From positions 1 to 64,000 of the forward strand of contig NZ_JAPWIJ010000013.1 in NCBI RefSeq assembly GCF_027270735.1: 64,000 bases of DNA, read 5' to 3'. Shown one piece after another: positions 24,428-41,578 of the stretch. The position numbers were made by a program, and so were the translations under genes. The notes beneath the pieces were generated by a model. It searched no databases, had not been told where the DNA came from, and saw nothing but the letters and a program-made list of their open reading frames with translations. Position 1 is the first letter of the stretch. Each line of letters begins with the position of its first letter. The DNA comes from Rhodococcus ruber (GTDB taxonomy: Bacteria; Actinomycetota; Actinomycetes; Mycobacteriales; Mycobacteriaceae).

Positions 24428-25164
24428 CTCGGGTTCTTCTCCCCTGCCTCGACGGCGACGGTCAGTCTGTTCTCGGCAGGCGCGACCGGGCACGTGGCGT
24501 AGTCGGTGAACGCACACGGAAGGTTGGATGCCCGGTTGAAATCGAGGACGACGGTGCCGTCCACCGGAGCGGGCACTGCCAGGATCCGCGCAGCCGGATA
24601 GGTGGTCACCCCGCTCGTGGCGTCGGTGAACAGGACCTTCAGACCATTACCGGTTCCGCCGAACGCAATCAGTTGCGCAGCGGTACCGGCCAACTCGAAG
24701 TCGAGAGTGCCCACGGCCGAGTGATGGTGTTCGAGACCTTCCACCACAGCCCCGGTGGTCACGGTGACCGGTGCGTCATAGGGAGTGAACGTGCCGGTAG
24801 CGACGAACTTCTCGCTCGGCTCGTAGGCGGGAATACCGTTGTAGGACTGCAGGGTCTGCGCTTCGGGGTCGTGTACCCGCAGCGCGACCGAAGCGGTGCG
24901 ACGGATCACCTCGATTCGCCGATCTCCGTCCTCGACCAGGATGCCCGGGGCACCCTCCACCGGATTCAGCGTCGTCACGCCGTCGAACCCCTCGACAGTC
25001 ACCGAATCGGCGTCGGCCTTCCAACGACCGGGAAGGTCTGCGACGGTCTCGAATTCATCGGTCAACCAATACAAACCGGTCAAGGACACCCAACCGAGGG
25101 GATCACCGTAGGACGCCTCTCGGTCGGCATGCCACTGCTTCCAGTCCTGCTCGAAATCACTCAT
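24424..25164 (-). CDS. DUF1684 protein
   Basis: The 246-residue product matches DUF1684 by its start (WKQWHADREASYGDPLGWVS) and by the conserved end FNRASNLPCAFTDYATCPVA followed by PAENRL. Its biochemical function is unknown. It is bracketed by luciferase-like monooxygenase genes with ATGA overlaps on both sides, which ties it to sulfur scavenging in this operon. Confidence 0.87.
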   Translation of the reverse strand: MSDFEQDWKQWHADREASYGDPLGWVSLTGLYWLTDEFETVADLPGRWKADADSVTVEGFDGVTTLNPVEGAPGILVEDGDRRIEVIRRTASVALRVHDPEAQTLQSYNGIPAYEPSEKFVATGTFTPYDAPVTVTTGAVVEGLEHHHSAVGTLDFELAGTAAQLIAFGGTGNGLKVLFTDATSGVTTYPAARILAVPAPVDGTVVLDFNRASNLPCAFTDYATCPVAPAENRLTVAVEAGEKNPR

Positions 25165-26516
25165 GATGCTCGCACTCCTTCACGCTGTTCGTACGGGTGC
25201 CGCAGACCGAGGTGGTCCCGCAAGGTGGTTCCGGCGTATTCGGTGCGGAAGCTGCCGCGATCCTGAAGTTCCGGAATCACTCTATCGACGAATTCATCGA
25301 GGCCGGCTGGGGTGATGTGCGGGACGAGAATGAAGCCGTCGCTCGCGTTGTTCTGCACGTAGCTGTCGATTTCCTCGGCCACGTGCGCAGGGGTTCCGAC
25401 GAACTGCTGCCGCGTCGTCATCGCGATGATCAGTTCACGAATGCTCAGGTTGTCTGCTTCGGCGCGCTCGCGGTACTGCTGAGCGATGGTTCTGGGGTCG
25501 CCGTGTCTCGCACGACCCCGGGTGATGGACACGTCGCCGCTGGGTTCGATGTCGGGTAACGGACCGTCCGGGTCGTACGCGGACAGGTCCTGTCCCCACA
25601 CCTGCTCGAGGAACGAAATAGCCGTCTTACCGCTGACCTGCTGATGCCGAATGTGATCCGCCTTCTCGACCGCGTCCTGTGCAGAATCGCCGAGCACGAA
25701 CGTCGCCGCGGGCAGCACCTTCAGGTCGTCGTGCTCGCGGCCGTACTTGGCGAGCCGACCCTTGACGTCGGAGTAGAACTTCTGACCGGCCTCGAGCGTG
25801 CCGTGGATGGTGAAGATGGCGTCGGCCTTCGCTGCACCGAACTCTCGGCCCTCGTCGGAGTCGCCCGCCTGCAACAGAACCGGATGACCCTGCGGACTGC
25901 GCGGCAGTGTGAAGCGGCCCTCGACATCGAATTGCGGCCCGGCATGCCGCACGGTTCGGATCTCGGACTCGCGACCGAAGATTCCCCGCTCCCGATCGAC
26001 GACTAACGCGTCGGACTGCCAAGAATCCCAGAGCTTTCGCGCGACGTCGATGATCTCGTTGGCCCGCACGTAACGGTCGGCACGATCGAGATAGCCGCCC
26101 CGGCGAAAATTCTCGCCGGTGAACGCGTCCGAGGACGTCACCATGTTCCATGCCGCCCTACCGTCGGACAGGTGGTCGAGCGACGAGAATTGTTTGGCGA
26201 GCTCGAACGGTTCGTTGAACGTGGTGTTGATTGTTCCGGCAAGTCCGAGCTTGGTCGTCACCGACGCAAGAGCGTTGAGGACGGTGAGCGTATCCGGTCG
26301 ACCGACCACGTCTAGATCGTGGATCTTGTTGCGGTGCTCACGCAGTCGCAGTCCCTCGGCGAGGAAGAAGAAGTCGAACAGACCGCGTTCGGCCGATTCG
26401 GCGAGGTGCACGAACGAGTCGAACTCGATCTGGCTCTTCGATTCCGGATCGGCCCAGACAGTCGTGTTGTTGACGCCGGGGAAATGGGCACCCAGATGTA
26501 TCTGCTTCTTCGTCAC
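25161..26516 (-). CDS. NtaA/SnaA/DszA-family flavin monooxygenase
   Basis: The 451-residue product is a two-component FMNH2-dependent monooxygenase. Signs are HLGAHFPGVNNTTVWADPES, FDFFFLAEGLRLREH, DGRAAWNMVTSSDAFTGENF and the family-typical HPVLLQAGDSDEGREFGA. Relatives oxidise nitrilotriacetate, dibenzothiophene sulfone or other sulfones. No flavin reductase gene is seen in the operon, so FMNH2 must come from elsewhere. Its ATG/TGA overlaps bind it tightly to the neighbours. Confidence 0.9.
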   Translation of the reverse strand: MTKKQIHLGAHFPGVNNTTVWADPESKSQIEFDSFVHLAESAERGLFDFFFLAEGLRLREHRNKIHDLDVVGRPDTLTVLNALASVTTKLGLAGTINTTFNEPFELAKQFSSLDHLSDGRAAWNMVTSSDAFTGENFRRGGYLDRADRYVRANEIIDVARKLWDSWQSDALVVDRERGIFGRESEIRTVRHAGPQFDVEGRFTLPRSPQGHPVLLQAGDSDEGREFGAAKADAIFTIHGTLEAGQKFYSDVKGRLAKYGREHDDLKVLPAATFVLGDSAQDAVEKADHIRHQQVSGKTAISFLEQVWGQDLSAYDPDGPLPDIEPSGDVSITRGRARHGDPRTIAQQYRERAEADNLSIRELIIAMTTRQQFVGTPAHVAEEIDSYVQNNASDGFILVPHITPAGLDEFVDRVIPELQDRGSFRTEYAGTTLRDHLGLRHPYEQREGVRAS

Positions 26517-27589
26517 AGGCTCCTCCCTTCGAGTGCAAAGCGATTGACGGGACGCGTCAGGCCGAGACGCTCGCGCAGAGTCGATCCGCTGCGAGTGTCC
26601 GTGGCCGGGAGAGCTGCTACTCCCGACGGCAACGCGAGCGGTACCAGAGTCACACCGTCCAGGCCGGCCGCTTCGATGGAACCGAGCAGGAGATGCAAGC
26701 CTGCCAGGTCACCGACATGCGACACGCTCCCAGCGGCTCTGACGTGCCCCGCCCAGTTGTCGAGCTGAGCGAGTTCTTCAGCGGCAGAATCGGATACCAA
26801 GGTCTCCACGTCCAACAGGACGAATACCTCGGCCGGGTCACGACCTTCGGCAACGACGGCCCGTCGAATGCGGGCGGCGGTCGTTGCCGCCTCCTCGACC
26901 GTGTCGGCGACGATTCGGACGATGTCGGCACGCGCGGCGGCCACCGATACGGACTCCGCGGAGTCGCCGCGAATCACGACGAGCGGCTTCCCCTGAGGAG
27001 ACCTCGGAGTGATCGACGGACCCTTGACCGAGAAGTTCTCACCCTCGAAGTCGATGTAGTGCAGCTTGTCTCGGTCGATGAACCGCCCCGACTCGACATC
27101 GCGGATCTCCGCGTCATCTTCCCAGCTGTCCCAGAGCCTGGTGACGACCTCGATTGCCTCGTCCGCCTCGCGCCACAGGCTGCCGTTGTCCTGCTCCGCT
27201 TTCCGGCCGAACAGCGCTGCCTGCTCGGCACCCGGACTCACCTCGACCTGCCATCCGGCCCGGCCGTGGGAAGCGAAATCGAGGCTCGCGATCTGCTTCG
27301 AGATGTGAAACGGCTCGGTGTGCGTGACGGTGATCGTGGGCACCAGCCCGATCTTCTCGGTGACGGCGGCTGCCCGTGCCGCGATGGCTGCGGCCTCGAG
27401 CGTCCGAGTGGCGAACGAATCGCCCAGGAACGCCAGATCGATACCCGCTCGGTCTGCGGCCTGGAGTTGGTCGATCCAGAACCCCGCTGTGAACAGGTCT
27501 TCGGCGCGAGAATCGGGACGGCGCCAGGCCTGCGGATGTGCGCCGGTGCCTTTCAGCTCTATCGCAGTCAGGAACAGCTTGTCAGACAC
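26513..27589 (-). CDS. LLM-class flavin-dependent monooxygenase
   Basis: The 358-residue product has the luciferase-like core [50 protein letters not shown] and the domain [18 protein letters not shown]. It is related to NtaA-type enzymes but shorter. Starts at GTG 27589, overlapping the end of the transporter ATPase gene by eight bases. It is the first enzyme after the transporter genes, so it may act first on the imported compound. Confidence 0.87.
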
Positions 27590-29180
27590 TGGTGCTCGCT
27601 TTCTCGTGCGCGCTTCCGGGAATGGCCCCGAGTAGCTCGCGGGTGTAGTCCTGCTGTGGATTGTCGAACAGTGCTGCGGTGTCGCCGTATTCCACGATGA
27701 CGCCGGATTGCATGACTGCCACGGTGTCGCTGATCTGACGGACCACGGCAAGATCGTGCGAGATGAAGAGGTAGCTCAGACCCAGCTCGGACTGCAGATC
27801 GTCGAGCAGCGTCAGGATCTGTGCTTGAACCGATACGTCGAGGGCCGAGACCGGCTCGTCGAGCACCACCAGTTCCGGCGCGAGAGCCAACGCTCGGGCG
27901 ATGGCGACGCGCTGGCGCTGCCCACCCGACAGCTCGGCAGGCCGGCGGGCCAGGTAGTCGCTGGTGAGTGCTACCTGATCCAGCAACGTCCGGGCACGCT
28001 CGGAACGCTCACGCGAGGAACCGACCTTGAACGCGTCCAACGGTTCTCGTACGATCTCGCCGACGCGCAGCTTCGGGTTCAGTGACGCGTACGGGTTCTG
28101 ATAGACGATCTGAACACGTCGCCGCAGTTCACGCCTGGCCTTGCCACGCAGACCTGTGATGTCCACGCCGTCGAACGTGACCGAACCCGACGACGCGGTC
28201 TCGAGACCGATCGCGATGCGCGCCAACGTGGACTTGCCGGACCCGGACTCGCCGACGAGCGAGACCGTCCGCCCGCGTTCGACGGTCAACGTGGCTCCCT
28301 TGACCGCATCGAGGTGGATGCCGCGGCCTATGGTGAACCGCTTCGAGACGTTGCTGACCGTGAGGATCGGTTCGGTTGCCGTGGTGCGCGCGGGTCGTAC
28401 GGTCGTATTCAGCGACGGCGCAGCGGCCAACAGTTGACGTGTGTACGCGTGCGTCGGATTCGCCAGTACCTCTGCGGTGGGGCCGGTTTCGACAATCCGA
28501 CCCGCGCTCATGACAATCAGGCGATCGGCTCTGTCCGCAGCCACGCCCAGGTCATGAGTGATCAGCAGGACAGCGGCACCGGTTTCGGCGATCCTGGCGT
28601 CGAGATGGTCGAGGATGCGTCGCTGCACGGTGACGTCGAGGGCGCTGGTCGGCTCGTCGGCGATCACCAGTTCCGGGCGGCACGCGAGAGCGATTCCGAT
28701 CAGTACGCGCTGACGCTGCCCACCGGACAGGTCCTGCGGATACTGCCGCGCCCGCACTTCGGGGTTGTCCAAACCGGCTTCGGTGAGGATGCGAATCGCC
28801 TCGACCTTCGCGGAGCGTCGATCGGCCAGACCGTGCACCCGCAGCACCTCGGCAACCTGATCGCCGACGCGAACCACCGGGTTCAGCGAGGTGGTCGGGT
28901 CCTGCGGGACGAGCCCGATATGGCGGCCGCGCAACCGGTTCAACGTCTTGTCCGAGGCTGTGTCGAGCCGCTGCCCGTCGAACGTCACCGATCCGCCAAC
29001 GATGCGGCCGGAACCCGAGAGCAGACCGATGAGGGCGTGGGCAGTCGTCGACTTTCCGGAACCCGACTCACCGACCACGGCCACCACTTCACCGCGGTCG
29101 ACGGTGAACCCGATGCCGGAGACGGCGGTCGTCTCACCGTAATTGACGTGCAGATTCTCTACTTCGAGAATGGGGCTCAT
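27582..29180 (-). CDS. Dual-ATPase subunit of a peptide/nickel-type ABC transporter
   Basis: The 532-residue protein carries two complete ATPase domains, like a DppD-DppF fusion. Each has a Walker [10 protein letters not shown] (about residues 36 and 307), a signature LSGGQRQR, and a Walker B followed by DEPTSALD or DEPVSALD. Each domain ends with the oligopeptide-type extension ([10 protein letters not shown] and [10 protein letters not shown]). It powers the two permeases encoded directly upstream. The ATG at 29180 overlaps the permease stop as ATGA. Confidence 0.94.
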
Positions 29181-30070
29181 TGTGATCGCCTCTCGAGTGC
29201 GTGCCCTAGGCGGTGCGCGGACACGACGACGGCCACGATCACCAAGCCCGGCAGTGTGGTCATCCACCAGGCGGTGGCCAGGAAGTTGCGGCCCTCGGAA
29301 ATCAGCGATCCCCACTCCGGGGTGGGCGGAGCGGCGCCGAAGCCGAGGAAGCTCAGCGCCGATACCGCGAGAACTGCCATACCGAATTCGACTGCAGCGA
29401 GGGCGATCACAGGGCCGTACGAGTTTCTGAGGATGTGCCTGCGGAACACATCGAACCACCGCACACCCGAGGCGTAGGCCGCTTCGACGTACAGTGATCT
29501 GCGCACCCGCAGCACCTCCGAGCGCATGACTCTCGCGAAATTCGCGATCAATGTCACACCGACGGCGATAGCGACGTTGACGGTGCCGAAGCCCAGAGCG
29601 GTCACCAGCGCCAGCGAGAGCAACAGCGTCGGAATCGACAGCAGCACATCGACGATGCGCATCAGCACCGCGTCGACTACTCCGCCGACGGCCCCCGAGA
29701 CCAGACCGATGATCGAGCCGACCACCAGGGCGATGCCGACTGCCAACAGCGTTGCCGTGAGAGACAGTCCGGAACCGTGGACCACTCGGGTGAAGACGTC
29801 GCGGCCGATGTTGTCGGTGCCGAACCAGTGCGACGCGCTGGGTGCCTGGAGCTTGTCGGCCGGTGTACCGACCAGCGGGTCGCCGCTCGCGAAAACGGAC
29901 GGGAACAGCGCGAACCCGAGAGCCAGCAACAGCACGATCACGGAGGCACCGAGCCAGATGTGCTTCAGCACGTCCCGCGGACCCCGGCGCCGCGTGGGTG
30001 CCGGTGCTTCGTCACCTGCCACGGGAATTGCCGAATAGACGGCAGGTTCACGAATCAATATGTCAGACAT
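29177..30070 (-). CDS. ABC transporter permease (DppC type)
   Basis: The 297-residue membrane protein has the DppC arrangement: an N-terminal cytoplasmic tail, a first helix at about 43-62, [19 protein letters not shown] typical of this family, five further helices and the ATPase-contact loop [20 protein letters not shown]. Start at ATG 30070 overlaps the end of the partner permease by eight bases. Substrate is inferred from the operon to be a sulfur-containing organic molecule or peptide. Confidence 0.92.
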
Positions 30071-31043
30071 GCGCTTTCTCCGGTTCTGCACTGGCCTGCG
30101 AGGGCCGGTATTCGCGCACGATGCGCGGATCGATCAGCGGATAGAGCAGGTCGACTGCGAGATTGACCAGGACGAAGACCAGCGATGTGAGAACGACGAT
30201 GCCTTGCACCACCGGAATGTCCTGGGCCAGCACCGATGTCTGGGTCAGCCGTCCGACTCCGGCGCGCGAGAACACCGTCTCGACCACCACCGATCCGGCC
30301 AGCAGGGTGCCCACCAAGACCCCGGCAATCGTGAAGGCGGGGATCGAGGACAGTCGCAGAACGTGTCGCGTCTGCACCCGAAGGCGTGAGACCCCCCTGG
30401 CCCGAGCCACATCCACGAACGGCTGCTTCCACGTGGTGGCCATGCTGGTAGCCAGGACCTGCGCGATGACAGCACCGGTCGGCAATGCCAGTGTCACCGC
30501 AGGCAGCACCAACGACGCTGCGCCTGCGTCACCGAACGCAGGGAACCAGCGCAGTCGGAACGAGAACAGTTGCAGCAGCAGTAGTCCTACCCAGAACGTC
30601 GGCACCGCCACCCCGAGCGGCGGGAGTGCGAGCAGCAGGTTCTTCAGCCATACGATCTGGGTGTACGTGGCTGCGTAGGCCACCGCGGATCCGAATACGA
30701 CGGCCAGCACCAGGGCCGTCCCCGCCAAGCCGAGCGTGCTGGGCACCGCGTCGAGAATGGCCGTCGTCACCGGCTGGCCGGTGGCGATGGACAATCCGAA
30801 GTCGCCCTGCACGGCCCCCACCAGCGAGTGCCAGTACTGCACCAGCACCGGCTGATCGAGACCGTAGCGGGCCTGGAGTTCAGCGATGGCCGCAGCGTCG
30901 GCCGGGGTGCCCGAGCCGGCCGAGTCCACGGCAAGACTGACCGGGTCCGAGGGAAGGAGGAAGAGCACGATGAACGAGATGGTGAACGCAGCCCACAGCA
31001 CTGCCAGTGCCTGCAGTACTCGCTGTCCGATGTAGCGGGTCAT
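30063..31043 (-). CDS. ABC transporter permease (DppB type)
   Basis: The 326-residue protein starts MTRYIGQRVLQALAVLWAAF, a typical DppB N-terminus. It carries a periplasmic segment (YGLDQPVLVQYWHSLVGAVQ), further helices and the cytoplasmic loop FVDVARARGVSRLRVQTRHV. It pairs with the DppC-type permease. Its ATG overlaps the binding-protein stop as ATGA. Confidence 0.92.
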   Translation of the reverse strand: MTRYIGQRVLQALAVLWAAFTISFIVLFLLPSDPVSLAVDSAGSGTPADAAAIAELQARYGLDQPVLVQYWHSLVGAVQGDFGLSIATGQPVTTAILDAVPSTLGLAGTALVLAVVFGSAVAYAATYTQIVWLKNLLLALPPLGVAVPTFWVGLLLLQLFSFRLRWFPAFGDAGAASLVLPAVTLALPTGAVIAQVLATSMATTWKQPFVDVARARGVSRLRVQTRHVLRLSSIPAFTIAGVLVGTLLAGSVVVETVFSRAGVGRLTQTSVLAQDIPVVQGIVVLTSLVFVLVNLAVDLLYPLIDPRIVREYRPSQASAEPEKAHV

Positions 31044-32653
31044 GCGCTCAGCCAGGTGTCGAAGAACTGGAGGCGAGCGGAGGCCTCGAATTTCAGATCC
31101 TGCACTGTCGACGCCGCGCCGACGGCCTGCGAGAGCTCGATCGTCGGAATCCACAGTCCGTTGTCGAGCACCTGCTGCTGCGCGGTTGCGAGGATCTCGT
31201 TGCGGGCCGCAACGTCGGTGGTCGAGAGCTGATCGGTCAACGAGGCGTCCAGATCCGGAATCGGGCCGCGCGCGTTCAAGTTCCGTCCGTCCACGGCAAA
31301 CGAGGTGCGCAGAATGTCGCCGTCGGCGCGGGTGCTGTTGTAGTAGGTGGAGTCGTAGTCCTTGGTGCCTTGCCGTGCCGTCGCCTCCGAAGTGGAGACC
31401 AGTTCGAGCTGTAGGTCGACGCCCACGGCACGCAGCTGCTGTTGGGTCAGCTCCAGAATCGCCTGGTTGCCGGCGAACACCGCTGAATACATGACCTTGA
31501 AACTCAGCTTCTGCCCGTCCTTTTCACGGATGCCGTCTCCACCGGGAGCCCAGCCTGCGGCGTCGAGCAGCGACTTAGACTTCTCGGGATCGTAGGTGAC
31601 ATCGGCGAGCTCGACGTACCCCGGGGTGGCGCTGGCCAAAGTGCTTGTCGCTGTGCGGAAGTCCGGTCCCAGGACCGTGTCGACGAGTTCCTGACGGTTG
31701 ATCGCCGGCACCAAGGCCGTCCGGACGGCGGGGTCCTGTAGCGCACCGCGAGTGACGTTGGGCTGAATGCCGAACGGAACACCCGGGTTGGATGCCGTCA
31801 GGATCCGGCCACCGGTCGCCTCGATCTGTGGAGCATCCTGCGGTAGCGCGTCGCTGACGGCGTCGAGCTGGTCGGAGGAAAGACTACCGGTACGTACACC
31901 CGACTCGGGCACGATGGTGAACTCGATGCGGTCCAGGTACGCCTCGCCCTCGTGTCCGAATACCGCAGAGCCCCAGTTGTATCCGCTTCGCTTGGCCAAA
32001 GCGACGGAACGGTCCTGTTGATAGTCCGCGTAGGTGAACGGTCCCGATCCGATGTTGGTGCCCAAGCACCGCGACTCGGCCGACTGTGCCGACGTCGCGG
32101 TGGCCTGGATGCCGAGCTGTGGTGTCGAACTCGCTTGCAGGAACTGCGCATTGGGTGCCGAGAAGTCGATGCGGACCGTGAGCGGGTCGACGACCGTGGC
32201 ACCTTGATATCCGGTCAGGTAACTCGCAGCCAGCGGTGCCTTGGCAGCACCGAGAGTGCCGGTGATGGCATCGAAATTGTCCTTCACGGCGGTGGCATCG
32301 AGCGCCGTGCCGTCACTGAACGTCACACCGTCCTTCAGCTGGAAGGTGAAGGACTTCGCGTCGGCACCGACCTCCCAACTCTCGGCCAACCATGGCTCGA
32401 CCTCTCCGGTTTCGGGGTTCTGGTCGGTAAGCGAATCGACCACCTGCCGGGTGACGTAGATGGTTTGATTTGTACCCGCCTGAGCCGGGTCGGAGCAGGT
32501 AGGAGCCCCGGACAGGCCGTAACGCAGCGTCCCTCCGGACTGGGGTGGGCCCGCGTCGGCAGCCGAGGTGGTGGCGCTACCTGCGCACCCGGCGAGCAAT
32601 GTGGCGGTGGCGGCGATTACTCCGGCCACCAAAAGAACAGGGCGAGTGGACAC
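31040..32653 (-). CDS. ABC transporter substrate-binding lipoprotein (family 5)
   Basis: The 537-residue protein is a family 5 (OppA/DppA-like) binding protein. The signal peptide ends in lipobox LAGC with the lipidated cysteine at residue 23. Family signs include TCSDPAQAGTNQTIYVTRQV, SLTDQNPETGEVEPWLAESW and VTFSDGTALDATAVKDNFD. The GTG at 32653 has GGAGA seven bases upstream. It is the first gene of the long minus-strand operon reaching 22330 and follows a 317-base leader with a SAM riboswitch and a Cys-containing leader ORF. The ligand is therefore probably an organosulfur compound. Confidence 0.93.
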   Translation of the reverse strand: MSTRPVLLVAGVIAATATLLAGCAGSATTSAADAGPPQSGGTLRYGLSGAPTCSDPAQAGTNQTIYVTRQVVDSLTDQNPETGEVEPWLAESWEVGADAKSFTFQLKDGVTFSDGTALDATAVKDNFDAITGTLGAAKAPLAASYLTGYQGATVVDPLTVRIDFSAPNAQFLQASSTPQLGIQATATSAQSAESRCLGTNIGSGPFTYADYQQDRSVALAKRSGYNWGSAVFGHEGEAYLDRIEFTIVPESGVRTGSLSSDQLDAVSDALPQDAPQIEATGGRILTASNPGVPFGIQPNVTRGALQDPAVRTALVPAINRQELVDTVLGPDFRTATSTLASATPGYVELADVTYDPEKSKSLLDAAGWAPGGDGIREKDGQKLSFKVMYSAVFAGNQAILELTQQQLRAVGVDLQLELVSTSEATARQGTKDYDSTYYNSTRADGDILRTSFAVDGRNLNARGPIPDLDASLTDQLSTTDVAARNEILATAQQQVLDNGLWIPTIELSQAVGAASTVQDLKFEASARLQFFDTWLSA

Positions 32654-32680
32654 GTGGGTGTCTCCGGTATCTGGTCGATC

Positions 32681-32731
32681 GCACGAGAACTCCCGCGTCC
32701 GAGCCACGTGTGCCCAGGAAGGAGTTCGTGC
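32681..32731 (-). promoter_or_regulatory. Hairpin in the operon leader before the binding-protein gene
   Basis: On the minus strand GCACGAACTCC (32731-32721) pairs with GGAGTTCTCGTGC (32693-32681) with a two-base bulge and a 27-base loop. It sits between the leader ORF stop and the ribosome site of the binding-protein gene, with no following U-run, so it may act as an attenuation or translation-control structure rather than a simple terminator. Confidence 0.45.
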
Positions 32732-32772
32732 AGATGATGAGGTGTGGTGTCGAAAAGTGCGGTGCCGAAATG

Positions 32773-32865
32773 TCAGCTAAGACAGGTCGAACCGTTCAGA
32801 CGGCACAGATCGACATGGATCCGACGGCATCCGTCGACGAAACCTGAGGCGACTCGGGTGTTCAC
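32773..32865 (-). CDS. Cysteine-containing leader peptide behind SAM riboswitch 1
   Basis: A 30-codon ORF starts at GTG 32865 with a perfect GGAGG seven bases upstream; an in-frame ATG at 32871 is too close to that site. It ends RRIHVDLCRLNGSTCLS and contains three cysteines (positions 13, 21 and 28). The RxHVDLCR...C pattern matches the short cysteine-responsive leader peptides described upstream of sulfur genes in mycobacteria and relatives. Its Shine-Dalgarno is continuous with the 3' strand of the riboswitch P1 stem, so SAM binding could hide it. It probably acts by ribosome progress through Cys codons. Confidence 0.65.
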   Translation of the reverse strand: MNTRVASGFVDGCRRIHVDLCRLNGSTCLS

Positions 32866-32872
32866 GTGCATT

Positions 32873-32963
32873 CCTCCATCGGTCCCGGCGGTAGCACCCT
32901 CACCCGACAAGCGGGGGGTTGCTGCGACGTCATAGAGCCAGGTCTCTCGGTCGCTCTGGATGG
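32873..32963 (-). ncRNA. SAM-I-type (S-box) riboswitch, copy 1
   Basis: Read on the minus strand: P1 is CCATC at the 5' end and GATGG at the 3' end. P2 is GCGAC...GTCGC enclosing the conserved GAGAGACC...GGCTC and ATGA kink-turn region. GCAGCAACC follows, then a P3 hairpin with arms CCCG/CGGG, and finally the conserved GGGTGCTACC. This is the SAM-I layout. A second copy at 41451-41541 has the same core but different, still pairing, P3 arms. It controls the 32653-22330 operon. Note that SAM-I is the best fit by eye; a covariance-model search was not possible. Confidence 0.8.
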
Positions 32964-32976
32964 TCCTACGTTCTCG

Positions 32977-33006
32977 ATACTACGAGAGGTTCGGCGCAGT
33001 TGCCAA
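32977..33006 (-). promoter_or_regulatory. Promoter of the SAM-riboswitch operon 1
   Basis: TTGGCA (33006-33001), 18 bases, then TAGTAT (32982-32977) on the minus strand. Transcription would start near 32970, a few bases before riboswitch helix P1. Confidence 0.5.
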
Positions 33007-38567: not shown

Positions 38568-39545
38568 CTACGCTGCAGGCTTGCGAGGAAGCCCGGGCGG
38601 GTTGATGACGGACTCGGACACGGCCTCGGACTGCAGGCCCCACCGATCGATGACCCGCTGGTAGCTGCCGTCGTCGATGGCATGTTGGAGCGCCTCGCGG
38701 ATGGCCTCGATGAGACCGTTGTCCTTCTTGGTCAAGACCGCGATCTCACCCTGCAACGCATCGCCGGCCCCGGAGAACGTCCCGACAACCTTCGATTCCC
38801 CACTGGTTGCCGCGTGGTAGATGGCAGAGGGGTTCGGGCCGAGATAGCCGTCGATTCGCTTCGATCCCAGCGCCAGGTAGTAATCGGACGTGTTCTGGTA
38901 GTAGGCCAGCTCTGCCGGCGCGAGACCCTCGGCCACGTTCGCCTCGTTCCAGTCCACCAACAGCTGTTCCTGGTTGGTACCGGACCCGACGCCGATCTTC
39001 TTGCCGGCGATGTCCTGACGCTTCTCCACCTTCCAGTCGGTGTCCTTCTGGGTCTCGAAGGCAAGATTGTCGAGCCGGTAGGTGGCGAAGTCGTATTTGT
39101 CTTTTCGCTCCTCGGTCACCGTGACGTTGGAGATGAACACATCGTTCTCGCCGGAATCGATCTTGACGAAGTTCTGCGACCAGTCCGCAACCTGCAGATC
39201 GACGTCCAGCCCGAGAATATCGCCGACGAGGTAAGAGAAGTCGACCTCGGATCCGACGATGGTGGTGTCGTCGGTGGCGTAGAACCGCAGCGGCGGCGCA
39301 GTTCCGCCCGCGCCGGTGACGATCAGCGTGCCTCGATCTCGAATGGCCTGTGGCACTTTTGCGGCGATCTCGTCGACCTTGTCGACTCGGACTCTTTCGG
39401 TCTGCTCGGGCGTGAGGTCGAAGCTTTGCCCGTCCTCGGTGACGACCTGAGACTCGGCCTCGGGGTCGCTGCAGGCGGTCGCGGTGAGCGCCACGATGGC
39501 CAAAGCTGCGGCGACGACCGTCAGCCTGCGTGATGGTTTCGACAT
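38568..39545 (-). CDS. ABC transporter amino-acid-binding lipoprotein (family 3)
   Basis: The 325-residue product has a signal peptide ending TATAC with lipid-type Cys25, then the family 3 fold. Signs are RDRGTLIVTGAGGTAPPLRF, GSEVDFSYLVGDILGLDV and DVFISNVTVTEERKDKYDFA. The extended segment before the fold (residues 26-75) is longer than usual. It partners the permease and ATPase of the same operon. The SAM riboswitch upstream suggests a sulfur-containing amino acid or amine. Confidence 0.9.
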   Translation of the reverse strand: MSKPSRRLTVVAAALAIVALTATACSDPEAESQVVTEDGQSFDLTPEQTERVRVDKVDEIAAKVPQAIRDRGTLIVTGAGGTAPPLRFYATDDTTIVGSEVDFSYLVGDILGLDVDLQVADWSQNFVKIDSGENDVFISNVTVTEERKDKYDFATYRLDNLAFETQKDTDWKVEKRQDIAGKKIGVGSGTNQEQLLVDWNEANVAEGLAPAELAYYQNTSDYYLALGSKRIDGYLGPNPSAIYHAATSGESKVVGTFSGAGDALQGEIAVLTKKDNGLIEAIREALQHAIDDGSYQRVIDRWGLQSEAVSESVINPPGLPRKPAA

Positions 39546-39579
39546 GAGTGTTGTCCGTCTTTCGCTGAAGTGAGGTGGT

Positions 39580-40371
39580 TTACAGAACGTGGGAGAGGAA
39601 AGCTTTGGTCCGCTCGTGCTGTGGCGAATCGAGAAGTGCTGCAGGAGATCCCTGTTCGACGATGACGCCGGAATCCATGAAGACCACCGTGTCGGCGATT
39701 TCGCGGGCGAATCCGACCTCGTGCGTGACGATCACCAGCGTGGCACCATCGCGTGCAAGTCCGCGGATGACTTCCAGCACCTCGCCGACGAGCTCCGGAT
39801 CGAGCGCCGAGGTGGGCTCGTCGAACAGAATTACTTTGGGACGCAACGCCAGTGCCCGCGCGATGGCCACTCGCTGCTGCTGTCCCCCGGATAGCCGACG
39901 CGGGTAGTCGTGCACCTTCGCGCCGACACCGACCCGCTCGAGCAGCGCAAGGGCCTCGGGCTCGACGTCGACGCGTTTGCGCTTCTGCGCCGAGATCGGT
40001 GCCTCGATGACGTTCTCGAGTACCGTCAGGTGCGGAAACAGGTTGAAGTTCTGGAACACGAACCCGATCTGCGAACGCTGACGCAGAATCTCACGGTTGC
40101 TGAGCTCGTGCAGCTTGGCACCCTTGCGTTTGTAGCCCACCAGATCGCCGTCGACCCGGACAGTCCCCTGGTCGACTTTCTCGAGGTGGTTGATGATGCG
40201 CAGCAGGGTCGATTTACCGGATCCGGACGGGCCGATGACTGCGGTGACCTCCCCGGGCCGGACGGTGAGGTCGACGCCTTTGAGCACTTCGAGGGCACCG
40301 TAGGACTTGTGTACGCCGCGCACCTCGACGGCGTAGGTCTTCGCAGACATCGTGGCATCGAGCGTCGTCAT
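39580..40371 (-). CDS. Polar amino-acid ABC transporter ATPase (GlnQ/TcyC type)
   Basis: The 263-residue product is a canonical GlnQ-like ATPase: Walker [13 protein letters not shown] (about residue 45), signature [15 protein letters not shown], Walker [18 protein letters not shown], and the switch histidine in VTHEVGFARE. The ATG at 40371 overlaps the permease stop as ATGA. A 34-base gap separates it from the binding-protein gene. Confidence 0.94.
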   Translation of the reverse strand: MTTLDATMSAKTYAVEVRGVHKSYGALEVLKGVDLTVRPGEVTAVIGPSGSGKSTLLRIINHLEKVDQGTVRVDGDLVGYKRKGAKLHELSNREILRQRSQIGFVFQNFNLFPHLTVLENVIEAPISAQKRKRVDVEPEALALLERVGVGAKVHDYPRRLSGGQQQRVAIARALALRPKVILFDEPTSALDPELVGEVLEVIRGLARDGATLVIVTHEVGFAREIADTVVFMDSGVIVEQGSPAALLDSPQHERTKAFLSHVL

Positions 40372-41333
40372 CGTGTTGCTCCTCGCGGGGCGAGGGTGAT
40401 TTCGGCCAGTTTCTTCCGTAGCTTCTGGATCGGCGTCAGCTCGATGTTGCGGACAGCCCCCTTGGCGTAGTGCCGCTCTACGTAGTACTGCACCACCGAC
40501 AGAATCGAGGTGAGAATGATGTACCAGACGGTGGCCACCATGAGCAGCGGTACCACTCGGCCGCTTCGGCCGTAGATGACCTGAACCTGGTAGAACAGCT
40601 CGGCGATCGCCATGACGGAGACGATCGAGGTGCCCTTGAACAGGCTGATCACCTCGTTGGCCGCATTGGGCAAGATCCCCCGCATCGCTTGCGGAAGAAT
40701 GATCTCGAAGAACTCTCGCCTTTTCGGAATACCCAGTGCCGCAGACGCTTCCAGCTGTCCCTGATCTACCGAGATGATACCGGCGCGGACGATCTCAGCG
40801 GAGTATGCAGCCTGATGCAGAGCGAGTCCGACGATCGCTGCCGTCGACCCGCTGATGACGTTGTTGACGTCGAACTCGAAGAAGCTGGGCCCGAACGGAA
40901 TTCCTACCGACAGGGTTTGGTAGAGATACGCGATGTTGAACCAGAACAGCAGCTGCACGATCAGGGGAATGGATCGGAACGCCCAGATGTAGAACCACGA
41001 GATGATCTGCAGCACCGGATTGTTCGACAGTCTGGCCACCGCGAGTGCGATGCCGAGCGCGAAGCCGATCAGGGTGCCCCAGAACGTGAGCTGGATGGTG
41101 AGCCACAAGGCCGACAGCACCGATTGCGCGGTGAAGTACTGAGCGAACGTGCCCCAGTCCCATCCCGGATTGGTGGCGAAGCCGTGCAGGAACTGGGCAA
41201 CAACGACCAGGGTGGCGATGCTGATCACCCACCGCCACGGATGCCACTTCCGTGCTACGACCAGCTGCTCGTCGGGGACCTGCGCATCGTCACCCGGGTT
41301 CGAGGCCGCAGGTCGAGCTTGTAGTTGAGTCAC
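40368..41333 (-). CDS. Polar amino-acid ABC transporter permease (HisM type)
   Basis: The 321-residue permease has a first helix at about 35-52, then the family block ALWLTIQLTFWGTLIGFALG, IISWFYIWAFRSIPLIVQLL and the ATPase-contact loop EASAALGIPKRREFFEIILP. A periplasmic insertion (residues ~165-190, FEFDVNNVISGSTAA) is usual in this group. Starts at GTG 41333 without a strong ribosome site. It is the first gene of the operon behind SAM riboswitch copy 2 and leader peptide MNICTCTHA. Confidence 0.92.
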   Translation of the reverse strand: MTQLQARPAASNPGDDAQVPDEQLVVARKWHPWRWVISIATLVVVAQFLHGFATNPGWDWGTFAQYFTAQSVLSALWLTIQLTFWGTLIGFALGIALAVARLSNNPVLQIISWFYIWAFRSIPLIVQLLFWFNIAYLYQTLSVGIPFGPSFFEFDVNNVISGSTAAIVGLALHQAAYSAEIVRAGIISVDQGQLEASAALGIPKRREFFEIILPQAMRGILPNAANEVISLFKGTSIVSVMAIAELFYQVQVIYGRSGRVVPLLMVATVWYIILTSILSVVQYYVERHYAKGAVRNIELTPIQKLRKKLAEITLAPRGATR

Positions 41334-41412
41334 CGGAACCGCCGGGTCGGATGGGCAGCGATCATCGCCGTGTTGCCTTTCGGAGAATTCGAGCTGTGGG
41401 TACGCGAATCGG

Positions 41413-41442
41413 TCAAGCGTGCGTACAGGTACAGATGTTCAT
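41413..41442 (-). CDS. Nine-residue Cys-x-Cys leader peptide behind SAM riboswitch 2
   Basis: ATG at 41442 with GGAGG eight bases upstream encodes MNICTCTHA and stops at TGA 41413-41415. The two Cys codons and the position match the leader at 32773, although the two peptides do not align. The Shine-Dalgarno is again continuous with the P1 3' strand of the riboswitch. It lies 80 bases before the permease gene. Its small size makes it uncertain alone; the parallel architecture is the main support. Confidence 0.55.
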   Translation of the reverse strand: MNICTCTHA

Positions 41443-41450
41443 CAGGCGTG

Positions 41451-41541
41451 CCTCCATCGGTCCTGGCGGTAGCACCCACACGCCATAAGGCGGGGTTGCT
41501 GCGACGTCATCGAGCCAAGGTCTCTCGGTCGCTCTGGATGG
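41451..41541 (-). ncRNA. SAM-I-type (S-box) riboswitch, copy 2
   Basis: Minus strand: P1 is CCATC/GATGG and P2 is GCGAC/GTCGC enclosing GAGAGACC, TTGGCTC and GATGA. The core GCAGCAACCC is followed by a P3 hairpin with arms CGCC/GGCG and then GGGTGCTACC. Outside P3 it is almost identical to copy 1, including the junction GATGGAGG with the leader Shine-Dalgarno. The changed but still paired P3 arms support a conserved RNA fold. It controls the 41333-36991 operon. Confidence 0.8.
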
Positions 41542-41550
41542 TGACAGGAA

Positions 41551-41578
41551 TGTATAGAACTTCAGATTGAAAAGTCAA
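41551..41578 (-). promoter_or_regulatory. Promoter of the SAM-riboswitch operon 2
   Basis: TTGACT (41578-41573), 16 bases, then TATACA (41556-41551) on the minus strand. The start would fall near 41544, directly before riboswitch helix P1. This is one of the best sigma-A-like promoters in the window. Confidence 0.65.

Follow-up and report, generated by a model that had tools for sequence, protein, structure and literature searches.

Mycobacterial cysteine leaders are reportedly leaderless and polycysteine, as the title of Canestrari 2020 has it. The base stems of actinobacterial riboswitches lie over start sites, according to the passages of PMC1262725 that treat them. The same paper describes short ORFs that respond to cysteine and precede the cys operons of mycobacteria, and it proposes loading of Rho for these leaders, a prediction that is called rather weak there. 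In Salmonella, the mgtCBR leader carries tandem attenuators formed by two short ORFs whose effects are independent and additive (relevant passages of PMC3641672). The SAM riboswitch and the cysteine leader are each known singly, and we found no report in the open-access literature searched, a scope outside which the key mycobacterial paper falls, of a SAM riboswitch that gates a cysteine leader. This agrees with a preliminary description of the DNA studied here, in which the combination was called undescribed.

The window, a stretch of 64,000 nucleotides from Rhodococcus ruber that was analyzed as a whole, carries two SAM-I riboswitches (RF00162) on its minus strand. Both were detected by cmscan of the 64 kb above the gathering score of 44.4 bits, and both matches are full length (model positions 1-108). 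Beyond these two copies no SAM-I riboswitch was found in the 5.86 Mb assembly among the 150 of 384 candidates that were scored. In the minimum free energy fold of the first copy the P1 stem is formed by CCATC and GATGG, and the GG of the 3' strand GATGG provides the first two bases of GGAGG, the Shine-Dalgarno (SD) sequence of a 30-codon ORF whose GTG start follows 7 nt downstream. The junction reads GATGGAGG-AATGCAC-GTG and the translated ORF is MNTRVASGFVDGCRRIHVDLCRLNGSTCLS. The fusion of a SAM riboswitch to a cysteine leader that the preliminary description had put forward is thus present. The second riboswitch and its leader, which that description did not include, are joined by GATGGAGG-CACGCCTG-ATG, leading into MNICTCTHA. 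Sigma-70-like promoter matches end a few bases 5' of each aptamer (at 32977, 10 nt away, and at 41549), so each aptamer is probably near the 5' end of its own transcript. The features are collected in Table 1.

Table 1. Coordinates of the two riboswitch-leader loci and associated features in the window.
Feature	Position	Strand	Basis or remarks
SAM-I aptamer RF00162, predicted SAM sensor	32873..32966	-	55.0 bits; P1 = 32963-32959 with 32880-32876
Shine-Dalgarno GGAGG of leader ORF, two bases common to P1 3' strand	32873..32877	-	sequence
Sigma-70-like promoter TTGGCA-18-TAGTAT	32977..33006	-	consensus match only; 1 found vs 0.1 expected in shuffles
Cys leader ORF, 30 codons + stop, GTG start	32773..32865	-	Cys TGC 32829-32827; motif Cys TGC 32805-32803, TGT 32784-32782
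C-rich, G-poor stretch 3' of leader stop, candidate Rho loading site	32713..32772	-	C-G excess 0.25
Hairpin without T-run, not an intrinsic terminator	32681..32731	-	-25.2 kcal/mol, z -2.8
First structural gene, SBP_bac_5 lipoprotein, peptide/nickel-type ABC importer	31040..32653	-	GTG 32653, SD GGAG 32665-32662
Remaining likely operon: two permeases, fused double ABC ATPase, two luciferase-like FMN monooxygenases	25161..31094	-	membership inferred from gene order
Second SAM-I riboswitch	41451..41544	-	55.4 bits
Second sigma-70-like promoter TTGACT-18-TACATT	41549..41578	-	consensus match only
Second Cys leader MNICTCTHA	41413..41442	-	SD GGAGG within P1 3' strand; Cys codons TGT, TGT
Small ORF MIAAHPTRRFR, TGA overlapping permease GTG start	41330..41365	-	sequence
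Amino-acid-type ABC importer, similar to cystine systems (permease, ATPase, SBP_bac_3)	38568..41333	-	families

The first leader was compared with two leader-peptide families. Against NF042934 (cis_reg_atten, cut-off 27) it scored 27.6 bits when translated from 32862, with the start codon omitted, to the ORF end, and 27.3 bits from 32868, with one codon added before the start. In the genome search the same leader reached 24.1 bits, below the cut-off, and the match is therefore marginal. The model of the Cys-rich Ms5788A leader (NF042933) gave only 10.1 and 9.9 bits against a cut-off of 45. For the second leader, which at 9 aa is too short for a direct scan, the own-genome search returned no NF042934 match at E <= 10 among the 150 of 254 candidates scored. 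The genes behind both leaders are candidates for sulfur acquisition, as far as their families allow substrates to be predicted. A box of the form AGAT[AC]..GGAG (32662-32672(-) in the window) recurs across distant Rhodococcus relatives of the first operon (operon A). The MIAAHPTRRFR ORF lies between the second leader and the permease, and its start is conserved in the aligned loci of related genomes, so that translational coupling of the permease to this ORF is possible.

To establish how widespread the arrangement is, genomes of the genus were searched with the Rfam model, which finds aptamers regardless of downstream sequence. SAM-I was present in 22 of 37 genomes with 51 matches, of which 50 were examined and one 28-bit match (G033:C20:7915-7996) was left out. 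An SD-like sequence coincided with the P1 3' strand in 50/50 aptamers. Behind them were 37 short ORFs (<=60 aa) with Cys and 13 structural genes that followed directly; short ORFs without Cys were not seen behind any of the 50, so that Cys is present in 37/37 leaders. The gene for the substrate-binding protein (SBP; E <= 1e-150) occurred in exactly those 22 genomes that have SAM-I, and in 18 of these the riboswitch-leader pair stands at the SBP operon. In four genomes a different reading frame closely precedes the SBP gene, and neither SAM-I nor an acceptable leader was seen before this gene. Upstream of the seven SBP genes without an adjoining SAM-I there was no Rfam match in any case, and no acceptable leader was seen upstream of four single orthologues (G011, G012, G016, G019) or of three second paralogues (G004, G031, G036). 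Three small Cys-containing ORFs at L205 were not accepted as a leader.

A pattern scan of genome contigs gave 109 named stretches. The pattern demands GATGGAGG, and the P1/SD overlap is there by construction while the downstream sequence is unconstrained. Together with the window and those genus loci that fit the aptamer pattern of the script (non-fitting ones are absent), this yielded 126 distinct loci; the genome searches score part of the first-look candidates and the numbers found are lower bounds. The 126 loci comprise 74 Cys leaders, 37 long ORFs directly behind the aptamer and 15 short ORFs without Cys. The Cys leaders are from Rhodococcus/Rhodococcoides (48), Nocardia (18), Plantactinospora (3), Cellulomonas (2), Micromonospora (1), Williamsia (1, from a record marked UNVERIFIED_CONTAM) and a Mycobacteriaceae MAG (1). 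Direct long ORFs were found in Nocardia (17), Rhodococcus/Rhodococcoides (11), Nesterenkonia (7), Yaniella (1) and Boudabousia (1), and the short ORFs without Cys in Nocardia (14) and an Enteractinococcus MAG (1).

The short peptides are strongly enriched in cysteine. Among the 72 distinct sequences, a set in which a few short ORFs from Nocardia are possibly not leaders, 62 contain Cys and 60 contain two or more, as compared with 3 of 36 distinct N-termini (first 30 aa) of directly controlled structural genes, each of the three having a single Cys. In residues, this amounts to 166/2088 (8%) versus 3/1080 (Fisher p 4.7e-27, a value that overstates independence since the sequences are related). 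The two other reading frames would encode 95 and 54 Cys, and mononucleotide shuffles 63.7 +/- 7.8. The riboswitch-Cys leader arrangement is thus confirmed as real, recurrent and more frequent than chance.

Since 13 of the 50 genus riboswitches are leaderless and 14 Nocardia short ORFs lack Cys, riboswitch and leader are separable modules. Conservation of the Cys codons across Rhodococcus riboswitches, as raised in the preliminary description, holds wherever a leader is present and does not extend to these two groups. Leaders have been gained or lost at homologous operons: in G035 this concerns the permease, and in Nocardia L066 the SBP gene lies directly behind the aptamer. Six Nocardia loci (L083, L085, L090, L125, L133, L153) have a Cys-less short ORF, VIIEDPS, that separates the riboswitch from the following long ORF and is perhaps a decayed leader. 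In sister species, extra SAM-I copies (L032, L039, L042-L047, and L041, L048, L049) lie directly on structural-gene starts. The genes under these copies encode, labeled by eye, an acetyltransferase-like 170-aa protein and a protein of ~620 aa with a dinucleotide-binding-like N-terminus.

The leader coding sequence was analyzed for signs of selection. Nine distinct DNAs of the 30-codon type differ by 16 synonymous and 11 non-synonymous changes where 71% non-synonymous would be expected (p 0.001), and their variable sites are distributed over codon positions 1, 2 and 3 as 5, 2 and 14. This substitution pattern indicates that the frame of the 30-codon-type leader is under purifying selection. The same test on the Nocardia leader frames (17 synonymous, 28 non-synonymous) was not significant (p 0.086).

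A motif [VIL]-D-[LQN]-C was found in 56 distinct leaders, with a second Cys exactly seven codons past the first. A single Cys tRNA reads both TGC and TGT. The second motif Cys is encoded by TGT in 56/56 of these leaders, while the first is TGC in 52/56 and TGT in 4/56, and in neighboring ORFs TGT accounts for 50 of 332 Cys codons (15%). Counting one leader per cluster, the second Cys is TGT in 13/13, among them L003 which has lost the first motif Cys, and L020 likewise keeps TGT with Ser in place of the first Cys. All 15 distinct leaders that lack the motif use TGT for their last Cys, and over all Cys codons such leaders have 13 TGC and 25 TGT; L022 and L029 (MNTCIRTPA) retain one of two Cys codons. 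Elsewhere codon use is mixed, with 9 TGC and 7 TGT before the motif and 13 and 9, respectively, at other positions after it; a further Cys follows the TGT in 7 of the 56 motif leaders. Residues beyond the Cys are also kept (R-x-H-x-D), and the N-termini differ in length and sequence.

The fixed codon is not confined to riboswitch-associated leaders. Class-wide, TGT occupies the same position in 26/26 scored NF042934 family members; 30 loci were fetched, of which L177, L180, L191 and L192 were clipped and remained unscored, and an earlier stricter motif that scored 9/30 loci was superseded by the one used for this count. On other contigs of the R. ruber genome, four NF042934 matches (L162, L164, L165, L166) also have TGT at this position, with L162 alone exceeding the family cut-off and L164 and L166 lacking the first Cys. 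The codon rule is therefore a property of the leader family that the window leader, with its TGT Cys seven codons past D-L-x, obeys; this feature was found here and is not part of the published definition of NF042934. No SAM-I occurs within the stretches examined at the four own-genome loci, and at L165 a SAM-IV riboswitch lies about 1.4 kb upstream, not adjacent. A second HVDLCR-like pattern match in the genome (L161) falls inside a long coding region, transporter-like by eye, and was dropped. We did not meet the TGT rule in the literature passages on Cys leaders that were covered, a scope outside which the mycobacterial study of Canestrari 2020 falls. The rule offers a codon-level handle on why attenuation leaders favor particular synonymous codons.

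At 29 of the 30 class-wide NF042934 loci the stretch examined holds no SAM riboswitch over the cut-off. At the remaining one, L173 (G082), a SAM-IV riboswitch (103.6 bits) immediately precedes a Cys leader that ends in ...RRHVDLVRVASCTCR with TGT last, and a second class of SAM aptamer is thereby joined to this leader family. Two further SAM-IV riboswitches (L236 in G109 and L237 in G137; 74.6 and 69.4 bits) precede NF042934-type leaders without any Cys that read ...LTRRLHIDLLRVSSAY, so that some members of the family may have a role other than reading Cys-tRNA. The sequence of these Cys-less leaders is RRLHIDLLRVSSAY. Judged by such sequences, SAM aptamers have been joined to these leaders more than once, but some of the family members so placed are unable to read Cys. 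In a sample of the best-scoring SAM-IV loci (30 fetched, 28 scored, L207 and L219 being clipped), a short ORF with at least two Cys lies <=80 nt away in 3/28, and only in L206 (MCIRRMCCR) is this the first SD-led start. At ten of the 28 scored loci (L206, L208, L209, L212, L214, L216, L220, L225, L226, L228) the first SD-led start opens an ORF of 6-9 codons with an Arg-Met pair, such as VSKRMR, VNQRMR, VSCQRMPRR, MTCRMPF and MCIRRMCCR; these ORFs have the look of a short leader that is conserved downstream of SAM-IV.

To examine how translation of the leader could be transmitted to the operon, the sequences downstream of the leader stop were inspected. A consensus scan found no intrinsic terminator behind either window leader, such as a classical attenuator would have. 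The window leader is followed by the C-rich, G-poor stretch that would mark a Rho-dependent attenuator. Over the 60 nt 3' of the leader stop the mean C-G excess was 0.148 (n = 67, leaving out L120, L062, L068 and L055 where the leader frame continues into the gene), and it was strongest in the first 30 nt. For comparison, 1320 gene windows gave 0.015 (sd 0.088; p 2e-21) and the regions upstream of the aptamers 0.020 (p 2e-11). By composition the stretch suits Rho loading, but C-rich UTRs can have other origins, which we counted against this reading. Furthermore, the C-G excess is below 0.1 in 13 of 15 Nocardia leaders, and taken with the non-significant selection test in this genus it implies that the Rho step is not the same everywhere, or wrong. 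Several Nocardia loci, e.g. L075, L078, L103 and L151, have a recurrent stretch near GCACCCGTCGCTGGCCGGGTG past the leader stop in place of the C-rich one, which could form a CACCCG/CGGGTG hairpin. The hairpin that the preliminary description had noted before the first structural gene does fold stably (Table 1); a regulatory role is not borne out, as a comparison of 9 close sequences showed one pair in which both partners had changed, and we do not count it as functional evidence.

The data are best accommodated by a serial two-input leader in which SAM gates ribosome entry, Cys-tRNA is read next, and the outcome is passed on by Rho-type antitermination, with the operon ON only when SAM and cysteine are low. 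We favor this model with modest confidence. P1 and the SD sequence cannot both be free, and SAM should thus decide ribosome entry. The anatomy suggests that SAM would stabilize P1, which holds part of the leader SD, so that ribosomes would not enter and the operon would be off. The same type of aptamer sits directly on structural-gene starts in the 13 leaderless genus cases, which makes SAM-controlled ribosome access the shared step. At low SAM the leader would be translated, and a shortage of Cys-tRNA would cause stalling at the conserved Cys codons, above all at the invariant UGU close to the stop. In the least certain step, the stalled ribosome would cover or block the C-rich stretch, Rho-dependent termination would be prevented and the sulfur-acquisition operon transcribed. 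With plentiful cysteine the ribosome would leave at the stop codon and Rho would act; the operon would be fully on only if SAM and cysteine were both low. As to the two-sensor interpretation given in the preliminary description, the SD at P1 in every aptamer examined, the Cys in every genus leader, the selection on the 30-codon frame and the fixed TGT speak for it, and the riboswitches without a leader restrict it to part of the aptamers. Evidence against the serial model comes from the leaders in which a Cys codon has been lost (L022, L029, L020, L003), from the Cys-less short ORFs of Nocardia and from the two Cys-less family members behind SAM-IV.

The last step might instead be translational attenuation, in which leader codons around the first motif Cys (Cys1) would pair with a box before the structural-gene SD and a Cys stall would free this SD, leaving SAM gating unchanged. 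This is the stated mode for the cys genes of M. smegmatis in the relevant passages of PMC13236596. The AGAT[AC]..GGAG box was looked for in 32 operon-A loci and lies ahead of the SBP start in 28, and RNAalifold on 9 close sequences predicts a duplex between the leader segment GTCGATC and GATCGAC, which adjoins the box. For four R. jostii/opacus-type loci (L121, L124, L135, L145), masking Cys1 raises SD accessibility from about 0.1 to 0.3-0.4, as compared with 0.07-0.19 for a mask at the stop; however, L107 of the same type moves oppositely (0.50 to 0.42). Averaged over loci, ribosome-mask folding changed SD accessibility only weakly (0.27 without a mask, 0.33 at Cys1, 0.27 at Cys2 and 0.27 at the stop), and other ribosome positions did as well as Cys1. 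A duplex permutation test showed that a leader pairs no better with its own SD box than with that of another species (P 0.26 and 0.45). The box is absent from the R. erythropolis type (L059, L077, L137), and as AGATCCGGAG it persists in G019, where neither riboswitch nor leader was seen. The mask folding and the RNAalifold pairing thus speak weakly for a translational attenuation step, and the permutation test and the retention of the box in G019 speak against it; on balance it is not well supported and we regard it as unlikely. For these reasons Rho-type antitermination at the UGU stall was placed first.

Two other explanations dispense with the reading of Cys-tRNA. If the riboswitch alone mattered, the leader would be a cheap translated spacer that keeps Rho off at low SAM, with Cys codons that are incidental or relics. 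This would account for the 13 of 50 genus aptamers without any leader, for leaders that come and go at homologous operons and for the 14 Nocardia short ORFs without Cys. Cys in 37/37 genus leaders, the overall Cys content of 8% and the seven-codon spacing with TGT in all 56 motif leaders make it improbable. Nor do we give much credence to the view that the peptide itself acts, as an arrest peptide or as a small metal- or thiol-binding protein. The conserved R-x-H-x-D residues and the two family members behind SAM-IV that keep RRLHIDLLRVSSA without any Cys would fit such a function. However, the second window leader, of 9 aa, lacks the R-x-H-x-D motif, the N-termini vary in length and sequence, and constraint on synonymous codon choice is not predicted by a peptide function. 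Returning to the serial model, we lean, if only slightly, towards viewing the element as a riboswitch that directly controls a second sensor: SAM would decide whether the ribosome is admitted, and this ribosome would then measure Cys-tRNA via the invariant UGU.

If this is true, the leader would form a serial AND-type gate on one mRNA that occurs in several actinobacterial genera and was joined at least once to SAM-IV, and it would connect two branches of sulfur metabolism, methionine/SAM and cysteine, with no protein regulator involved. Natural controls exist in the form of the same aptamer with and without a leader in one genus, and of same-family leaders in loci without a SAM riboswitch. 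The overlap of the P1 3' strand with an SD sequence is as in SAM-I (S-box) riboswitches whose base stem lies on the start region and agrees with the actinobacterial cases in the passages of PMC1262725; the start controlled here belongs to a Cys leader peptide and not to a structural gene. The first leader shares with NF042934, at whose cut-off it scores marginally, the TGT position common to all scored class-wide members, and differs from nearly all of these in standing behind a SAM riboswitch. Like the mycobacterial cys short ORFs in those passages of PMC1262725, it has Cys codons near the stop, no obvious terminator and sulfur genes downstream. The mycobacterial leaders are, by the title quoted above, leaderless and polycysteine, in contrast to the SD under an aptamer and the spaced Cys codons found here; the Ms5788A model scores ~10 bits versus 45. 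The cysS attenuator uORFC-8-2 likewise uses a short ORF with Cys codons as sensor, but it is from Alphaproteobacteria and has an intrinsic terminator, and the passages of PMC8632094 on it mention no riboswitch. In the metA leader of Sinorhizobium, an SD and a first AUG likewise stand between a SAM aptamer and the working start, but the aptamer is SAM-II, one signal is read and an intrinsic terminator lies between the two AUGs; a Cys leader is not mentioned in the relevant passages of PMC9373788. Two-signal leaders are rare, and what would be new here, if the model holds, is a serial instead of a parallel two-signal logic, present in many species. With mgtCBR the element shares that one leader mRNA reads two different signals; according to the passages of PMC3641672 these signals are independent in Salmonella, whereas here a small-molecule aptamer would gate the ORF, placing the two sensors in series.
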